A DNA stretch of 28,302 nucleotides from a virus: positions 1 through 28,302 of the IMG/VR virus record IMGVR_UViG_3300037189_032910. One strand, 5' to 3'. The first letter of the stretch is position 1; each line of letters starts with the position of its first letter. Made by a program: the position numbers and the translations under genes. Below, piece after piece: positions 8,876 through 11,800 of this stretch. Under the pieces are notes generated by a model. It was not told the DNA's origin. It worked only from the letters and a program-made list of their open reading frames with translations, and made no database searches.

Positions 8876-11800
8876 ATGTTTGAGATTAAAAAGATAGATA
8901 AAAAATCTATTAAAAAACAAGATGTAATAGATGTAACGCCAGAAGTTACACCTTCTCCTTCTCCTACCCCTGTTGTGTTGGGTTACAATTCTGCAAATTG
9001 TAACAATGTGGCTGATTGGAATTCTCTAAACGGAAACGTTACGTCTGTTGGAACAAATGGTGGTCCAAGTGCATATGGAACATATGATCAAAATGGTAAT
9101 GTTTTTGAATGGAACGATGTTGATGGCACACTTTCCACTGGTTTAAGGGGTGTTTTAGGTGGTGCTTGGTCATATACAACAAGTGATTTTAATACCAATA
9201 TAAGCCTTAATGATCCTGGACCAATATCAGAGATAAATTCTGTAGGCTTCAGAATAGCAAGTGATTCAAATCCAGACAATCTGTCTAATTTTGTTTTTGT
9301 TGGCGATGCAGGCAATGATCAGGATTCAAATGGTCGTGGATCTGTGGATCATAATTTTTATATAGGAAAATATGAGGTTACAAATGACGAATATGTAGAG
9401 TTTCTTAATTCTGTTTATGATTGTTGTGGACTCTTCAATGTTAATATGCAGGCAGACTCAAGAAGCGGCATAATTCGCACAGGATCAATTGGAAGTTTTA
9501 CATATGAAGTTAGACCCAACATGGGAAACAAACCAGTTGTCTATGTTTGCTGGTTAGATTGTGCAAGGTATTGTAATTGGTTGCATAATGGTAAAGATCC
9601 AACTGCCGGAAGCACAGAGACAGGTGCCTATACGATTAGCGGATTGTCGGCAGTTATTCCAAACAATAATGCAAAATATAGACTTCCAACACAAGATGAA
9701 TGGTATAAAGCAGCATATTATAAAGGAAGCGGATTAAATTCTGGTTATTGGACGTATGCAACTCAAAGTGATAATCCTCCTGAGTGTGTTTGCGCCACTT
9801 CAACAGGAGATGGTGTAATATGTGAAATTATTCCAAAATTAACTCCAACACCTACTCCGACAAAAACTCCAACACCTACTCCTGAACCTACATCCGATTC
9901 TTGCACAAAGGTCTGTTTTAGAATGGCGTGTCCTCAGAAGTGCATAGTGATTCCTCCAACCCCTAAGCCAGAATTAGGAATAAGAGATGTTCATTTTACA
10001 GGAGCATTATTTAATGACCATGTTTTATGTGGATGGTATGAAAGACCCCAGTATGCAAACGACCATCTTGCAAATTGCTTCTTAGATGCCGATGACTATG
10101 TATCTATAGGCGAATATCCAGATAATTCCGTAGCGTTTTATAATGCCGCTCACACTACATTTGATTCAATTGCAATATATCCTGGTTCAAGACTTACTAT
10201 TTATTCTGGTAAAAATTTTACTGGATCTATAGTTCTGGATGTCATAGGACCGGCACTTATATGGAATAAATACTATAAGGACATTATGCCAAGTGGGTCA
10301 ACCACAGTTCTTCATGATATGACAACAGATTGGGATTCAGGTTTGAATGAAACATTTCCACCAAGTAAAAGATTTGCTATGGATCCAGCCAAAGGTCATG
10401 ATATGTGGCTTTGGGCAAATGGTAGTTGCAAAATCACATCTGTGGACGTTGAGTCAGAAACAGAGCTGTTGATCCCCAGTCCTTCTTCTTTGTCAATTGA
10501 TGAAGAAAATATAAATTTATCATTTGCAAGCACTATTTCCCCTGTTAATTTTAAAGCTATGGAAGTGACTCCCACTCCCAATTGTTGTTCCGAAGTAGTT
10601 TTAAAAACCATAGATGTTGGGCACAAAACATTAGGAATAGCAATTAATCAAACTTCAAATAAAGCCTATGTTTCTTGTGATGATAATAAATTATTATTTT
10701 TAGATCTTAGCTCAGAAACTGTTTTACAAGAAATAAACATAGGATTGGGCAAAGATATAGTTACATATGGAGGTGGTGGTTTAAAATCCAGAAAAGTTGT
10801 TTTTGATCCTGTAAAAAATAGAATTTATGTTGTTAATCCTGGAGATGACACAGTTTCTGTAATTGATGAATCTACGGGAAATATACTGACAAACATATCA
10901 ACTGGCGCCCTACCCGTGGGAATAGCTCTTAGTCAAGATGCCGACACTCTTTATGTTACCAACGGGGATGATTGTACAGTTAGTGTTATAAACACAATTG
11001 ATTATTCCACCATACGAACTATATCTTTGCCACAAGAAAATTCACAACCGTACCTCTACAGACTAGCAGTAGTTCCATCTGAAGTTGGAAACGCTGGTCA
11101 AGGTATACCAGCGGACAATGGATACTTAATAGTTGGTGGAAGATTCGCTAGATTTTTTATTGTTAATTTGTCAGATGATTTATTTATTAAAGTGGATTCA
11201 AATGCAGATACATACGATATAATCCTTACAGGATTGGCTGGTAGCCTAAACCCCCCAAGAACAATACCTTCGCAGTTTTATGTTTCTTGTTTCACAGATA
11301 GTGCAGGTTTGAATGAAGGGGGACTAAGTGGTAATAAAGTGGCGATAAACACGAGCAATTTAGGCTATACTGGTGTGCAGGGTATGGCTGTATCTACTGA
11401 TTGTTCTAAACTATATTGCGCCAGCACAAGTCACATAGGCGTATTAGATCCTGCTTCAAATACAAGCTTGGGCGTTATAACAGTAGAATATGGGGCTGCG
11501 CATGATGTGGAGATAAATAGAAATTTAAATAAATTATATATTACAAATGATACTACGAACAATATATCCGTAGTTGGTTGTTTGTCTGTCGATCCAACTC
11601 TAACTCCAACTCCAACTCCAACTTTAACTCCTTCCCCAACTCCTACAATTCTTCCAAAATATTTGTGCTATAGCAATGAATTTTGTGTCGGATACACCCC
11701 AGAAACACCTGCTCCCACATCCACCCCAACTCCAACACCAACACCAACTCAGACAGCATTTTATTGTGGTGGATGTGAATACTATTTTGATATAAGTGAT

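Follow-up and report, generated by a model that had tools for sequence, protein, structure and literature searches.

The 28,302-nucleotide stretch of viral DNA analysed here, referred to below as the window, contains an open reading frame (ORF) of 1018 amino acids (aa) whose product is a multidomain, surface-type protein, and a tail-fibre-like ORF adjoins it upstream (Table 1). Ahead of its beta-propeller region, the 1018-aa protein contains a domain of the PF03781 family, with the C-terminal half (C-half) placed before the N-terminal half (N-half) and with stretches rich in proline, threonine and serine on both sides. The same flanking composition is seen in 90 permuted copies of the domain, the flanks having a median P/T/S content of 56%, versus 23% within the domain. 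Three further large proteins with PT-rich linkers are encoded in the window at 1701-3227, 15449-18238 (minus strand) and 19803-21656, none with a Pfam family above cut-off, and a subtilase gene (PF00082; 18577-19575) is located near such PT-rich-linker proteins. The window also contains an alginate-lyase family gene (26282-27403; PF05426, E=2.5e-49) and, at 23075-25573, a T4-like gp20 portal gene interrupted by an intein (PF14890, aa 115-329), whose nearest annotated-phage relative is from the 595-kb uncultured phage LR756511.1 (51% over the full length, including the intein). Megablast of window positions 1-24000 returned no match, and tblastn of the domain against 50,697 annotated phage records returned none at E<=0.01.

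Table 1. Features of the 1018-aa ORF and of its upstream neighbour (window coordinates).
Feature	Position	Strand	Basis or content
Neighbour ORF, 191 aa, tail-fibre / virion structural N-terminus	8270..8845	+	Matches in PHROG, structural or tail fibre; best 3.9e-12
ORF, 1018 aa, multidomain surface-type protein	8876..11932	+	Permuted domain, PT-rich linkers, unknown-fold region, YncE-like beta-propeller, Cys-rich tail
Short P/T/S-rich stretch ahead of the permuted domain	8945..8980	+	Sequence
C-terminal half of PF03781 domain (GYNSAN...GFRIAS), first in the chain	8981..9262	+	Pfam positions 155-254; hhalign canonical columns 185-276
Loop segment AWSYTTSDFNTNISLNDPGPISEINS within the C-half, hypervariable and predicted to bind ligand	9164..9241	+	Column entropy; dN/dS in other family members
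New linker DSNPDNLSN, native C-terminus to native N-terminus, 9 aa	9263..9289	+	Linker lengths in 90 distinct copies
N-terminal half of PF03781 domain (FVFVGDAGN...ATSTGDG), second in the chain	9290..9814	+	Pfam positions 33-126; canonical columns 1-182
PT-rich linker after the permuted domain (LTPTPTPTKTPTPTPEPTS)	9839..9895	+	Sequence
YncE / surface-layer-like beta-propeller region of the 1018-aa protein	10580..11638	+	

Searched alone with Pfam hmmscan, the N-half (window 9290-9838) was observed to match PF03781 profile positions 33-126 (E=3.4e-15), and the piece ahead of it (window 8876-9295) to match positions 155-254 (E=4.6e-4). The profile order along the ORF is 155-254 and then 33-126, not the canonical N-to-C order of PF03781. 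A DNA-level search gave the same arrangement, with positions 156-254 at 9011-9259 and positions 33-126 at 9341-9727, both free of stop codons. The whole protein scored 66.8 bits against a PF03781 gathering cut-off of 23.3 and belongs to the family, the C-half by itself scoring below the Pfam cut-off; PF03781 was also matched by each of the 29 members of alignment A1. In profile-profile comparisons with canonical bacterial relatives, the N-half was aligned with columns 1-182 (probability 100%, E=3.5e-83) and the C-half, by hhalign, with columns 185-276 of 294 (99.9%, E=5e-36). Because the halves between them cover columns 1-182 and 185-276, both are complete and only the cut loop, between ATSTGDG and GYNSAN, has been opened, with almost no part of the domain missing. 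The swapped order and the completeness of both halves, each proposed in an earlier sequence-only reading of this DNA, are thus confirmed. That reading also placed the new join where the native ends would be near each other, in agreement with the canonical proteins, in which the domain begins shortly after the signal peptide and finishes at GFRxAS, and with the C-type-lectin (CLec) core, whose first and last strands run antiparallel to each other (PMC5006420). These comparisons support the view that the window domain is a complete PF03781 domain, circularly permuted in nature.

A first AlphaFold model, based on 29 sequences, was mediocre (pLDDT 70), and Foldseek found no useful match to it in PDB or BFVD. 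With a deeper alignment, A2, composed of 70 permuted rows plus the bacterial N-half and C-half as separate, unchanged rows, AlphaFold predicted one compact domain (pLDDT 93.3, pTM 0.92). This is the single fold that the sequence-only reading had expected of a genuine permutation; the two separate incomplete folds that it had named as the contrary outcome were not predicted. The best Foldseek matches in PDB were SUMF2, PvdO and TvpA (~105 columns, E 0.018 to 0.9), and even the top one, SUMF2 (E=0.018, ~106 columns), was weak, which is to be expected of a sequential aligner applied to a permutant and is not in itself proof of one. In VIA comparisons, residues 106-283 of the model were aligned with CarF 4-196 (Z 6.4, rmsd 3.8, 146 residues), and residues 107-284 with SUMF2 28-220 (Z 5.1, rmsd 3.2, 124 residues); TvpA (2y3c; Z 5.8, rmsd 4.5, 146 residues) and PorK (Z 5.8) were also among the FGE-type chains matched by the part of the model from about residue 100 to 285. 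Residues 4-99 were aligned with EgtB-IV 333-441 (Z 4.8, rmsd 3.6, 88 residues), and other rows matched residues 7-101 to chain residues 341-448 (Z 3.9-4.0, 87 residues). All of the listed rows are folds of the FGE, EgtB, PorK and TvpA types (FGE, formylglycine-generating enzyme), with Z values of at most 6.4, and most of the alignments cover chiefly one half. A sequential aligner can trace only one of the halves in any given alignment, and the two halves were matched to opposite ends of one fold, as a circular permutation predicts; with all Z values below 8, these matches count as support for a permuted fold and not as proof. Complete halves, an exchanged order, a short linker and a predicted compact single-domain fold, the features by which a natural circular permutant is recognized, are all present in the window copy. 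It is conceivable that the halves instead pair across chains by domain swapping within a trimeric fibre, which would make the functional domain an intermolecular one. Trimers are known among phage receptor-binding proteins, Mtd being obligatorily trimeric (PMC6328139), and the linker is short, but the confident single-chain prediction argues against such an exchange, which we regard as improbable.

How widespread is the swapped order? A scan of viral contigs with a 291-aa piece yielded 28 loci, and in 27 of them the swapped order was found, with collinearity checked, over ~280 aa at 43-58% identity, which excludes chance; the exception, L030, matched over residues 169-285 only. A census with HMMs built separately from the C-half and the N-half revealed 102 distinct swapped modules (order C-N1-N2) on IMG/VR viral contigs, together with 28 single canonical modules. 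Among the matches listed, 80 bacterial-genome loci, mostly of Planctomycetota and Verrucomicrobiota, contained at least 84 single canonical modules and at least seven canonical tandem arrays, and no permuted module was present among these listed bacterial matches. Among 90 distinct permuted copies, the linker between the halves is usually 9, 12 or 10 aa long (mostly 8-12 aa), and in L206 (ORF 116-3937, aa 10-576) an insert of ~290 aa separates the two halves at the site of the new linker. Five proteins of 315-336 aa between stops (L018, L028, L161, L210 and L215) consist of hardly more than one permuted domain.

The canonical copies on IMG/VR contigs were considered as canonical forms borne by phages, and this was rejected for most of them. 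Of 16 such copies whose ends were inspected, most have a signal-peptide-like start and a VPEP/IPEP...RRKR (PEP-CTERM-like) end, indicating that the canonical IMG/VR copies are probably bacterial fragments. This probably holds for the contigs L220, L228, L232, L235, L237, L241, L242, L244, L255, L260, L263, L270, L280 and L281, all with canonical copies that have PEP-CTERM-like ends; L244 contains five PEP-CTERM-ended canonical genes in succession. The canonical copies in L225 (aa 1333-1610) and L016 (aa 1223-1497) are without those end signals and look phage-borne. In L016, a permuted copy is followed directly by the canonical one in a single polypeptide (ORF 3247-8622, aa 922-1497), and this canonical copy groups with the Planctomycetota contig L082.

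The GG...GFR segment of the C-half is hypervariable: its columns have a mean entropy of 3.05 bits, as against 1.6 for the other C-half columns and 1.5 for those of the N-half. The N-half has dN/dS values of ~0.05-0.2 in most pairs compared, indicating that the domain is maintained by purifying selection. In the GG...GFR segment, dN/dS is often ~0.5-1 (for example, dN 0.383 and dS 0.441 for L007/L017), and low values were obtained for two pairs, L159/L170 and L125/L130. The otherwise similar 526-aa proteins of L017 (7378-8955) and L007 (3558-5135) were found to differ at 14 of 26 positions in the loop and at 25 of the other 273 residues of the domain, and the differences showed no adenine bias. 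For FGE-subtype CLec proteins, the putative ligand site is the sequence between beta3 and beta5 (PMC6328139), and the place of the GG...GFR segment in the C-half suggests that it is the counterpart of this site. At the three loci with matches, the genes near the module encode tail-fibre, baseplate and virion structural proteins and head maturation proteases. The fold, these neighbours and the variable loop together suggest a putative role in receptor recognition, and we consider it reasonably likely that the permuted domain is a ligand-binding module of a virion-surface protein.

A hypervariable segment in this fold class also brings to mind the diversity-generating retroelements (DGRs), of which the domain could be a variable protein whose variable region was moved inward by permutation: DGRs typically target CLec folds of the FGE type (PMC6328139), and the structural matches of the model include TvpA. 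However, PF00078 reverse transcriptase was detected in none of 28 viral records other than the 28-kb record of the window, several of them longer than 150 kb (although such records may be fragments); in addition, a comparison of four loci revealed no template repeat, and in the pair compared the differences were not biased towards adenines, so that a DGR origin of the variability is quite unlikely. The catalytic, copper-binding cysteines of FGE, which we take to lie in the GG...GFR segment, are likewise mostly missing. The window copy has no cysteine in this segment, nor do 70 of 80 permuted copies (eight have one and two have two), and the segment is Cys-free in 41 of 42 canonical relatives; enzyme activity is therefore unlikely. 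An active permuted enzyme of the FGE or EgtB kind, to which the shared Pfam family and the presence of FGE and EgtB among the fold matches might point, is accordingly very doubtful, the more so as the family occurs in PT-linked multidomain proteins, some of them beside virion genes. With no reverse transcriptase found in those records and the FGE cysteines mostly absent, the permuted domain probably belongs neither with the DGR targets nor with the FGE enzymes.

A tree was built from the concatenated halves in homologous order with 71 rows (22 permuted, 49 canonical), the long-branch row L057 being left out. The 22 permuted rows formed one clade (UFBoot 99, SH-aLRT 94) with one state change. 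When L057 was included, this canonical row was placed among the permuted rows, and the data remained compatible with a single permuted clade in an AU test (p=0.177); non-monophyly of the permuted rows was rejected as an effect of this one long-branch row. A single ancient permutation event is thus probably behind the viral permuted copies.

Permutation by duplication predicts tandem and over-complete intermediates (PMC3320104), and counterparts of both arrays were found in this family. In the bacterial N-C-N-C tandem arrays, the C-to-N spacers are 5, 7, 8, 11, 11, 13, 17 and, in one case, 53 aa long, and the linkers of the permuted copies resemble them. The 1495-aa ORF of L347/L348 contains a C-half at aa 9-92 and a canonical N-C domain at aa 246-548; it is over-complete (C...N-C) and resembles a permutation-by-duplication intermediate. 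Both arrangements fit the expectation of the model, from which a duplication-truncation route is inferred. An ancestor in canonical N-C order, as still present in proteins of Planctomycetota and Verrucomicrobiota, would have been duplicated head to tail to N-C-N-C, and truncation at both ends would have left C-N, with the native C- and N-termini still joined via the short inter-domain spacer and the new chain ends falling in the loop that separates profile positions ~126 and 155. The fold would be kept, with the chain entry and exit moved and the GG...GFR loop segment serving as the variable ligand site. That canonical tandem arrays with similar C-to-N spacers exist in bacteria could also mean that the swapped order is a mere remnant of such an array, the C-half of one domain followed by the N-half of the next, each incomplete and not folding together, as the sequence-only reading had itself cautioned; but some proteins contain barely more than a C-half and an N-half, the order is kept over ~100 divergent copies, the N-half is under purifying selection and one compact fold is predicted with high pTM, which leaves this account with hardly any likelihood. 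Overall, the favoured and very probable account is that of an FGE-type C-type-lectin fold that was circularly permuted in nature via tandem duplication and truncation and that would bind ligands, without catalysis, in phage tail or adhesin proteins.

A second, different cut was found in L199 (aa 76-375) and L207 (aa 34-344), in which the order is N2-C-N1. These copies start at the YW[IL]PSxDEW segment and finish at GAYPLxGAxSG. In the tree, the two pair together and are nested in the permuted clade, suggesting that a module already permuted once was permuted a second time. As a tentative extension, the fold may have been permuted at least twice in one phage module family, at the GDG/NSAN loop and later before IPTENEW, and the permutants may have spread in phage adhesins because moved chain ends turn the ligand site to a new orientation on the fibre, the loop meanwhile diversifying with no retroelement involved. 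The conserved family, the nested second permutation and the probable lack of FGE enzyme identity all go beyond the sequence-only reading.

Several known systems are similar to the permuted module in part. The PF03781 proteins of Planctomycetota and Verrucomicrobiota (e.g., L031, from a Candidatus Kuenenia MAG) belong to the same family, both halves aligning confidently and the FGE cysteine segment being mostly Cys-free in canonical and permuted copies alike; these canonical relatives have the N-C order and, in IMG/VR, a signal peptide and a PEP-CTERM tail, whereas the permuted copies are C-N. The DGR variable proteins of the FGE-subtype CLec class (Mtd, TvpA and TaqVP) would share their fold class with the permuted domain, TvpA (2y3c) being among the matches to the model, and Mtd has a receptor-binding role in phage (PMC5006420). 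However, they have the canonical order with a C-terminal variable region, whereas in the permuted domain the variable segment precedes the N-half, with no reverse transcriptase or template repeat found. Formylglycine-generating enzyme and EgtB would also share the predicted fold (SUMF2, FGE, PvdO, EgtB and CarF being the structural matches), from which the permuted domain differs in its swapped order and in the FGE cysteines being mostly absent. Saposin/swaposin and DNA methyltransferases (PMC3320104) are natural permutants that arose by the same kind of event in different folds.

Circular permutation as such is already well known, and no literature report of a permuted FGE or CLec fold was found in a search that reached few subscription-only papers. 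To our knowledge, few natural permutations are known in which unpermuted relatives, tandem arrays and a second cut occur in one family. Since a sequential profile search breaks the domain in two or fails to detect one half, the module may be under-annotated in viral metagenomes. The family offers, as an experiment of nature, a view of the loops at which the C-type-lectin/FGE fold can accept new chain ends.
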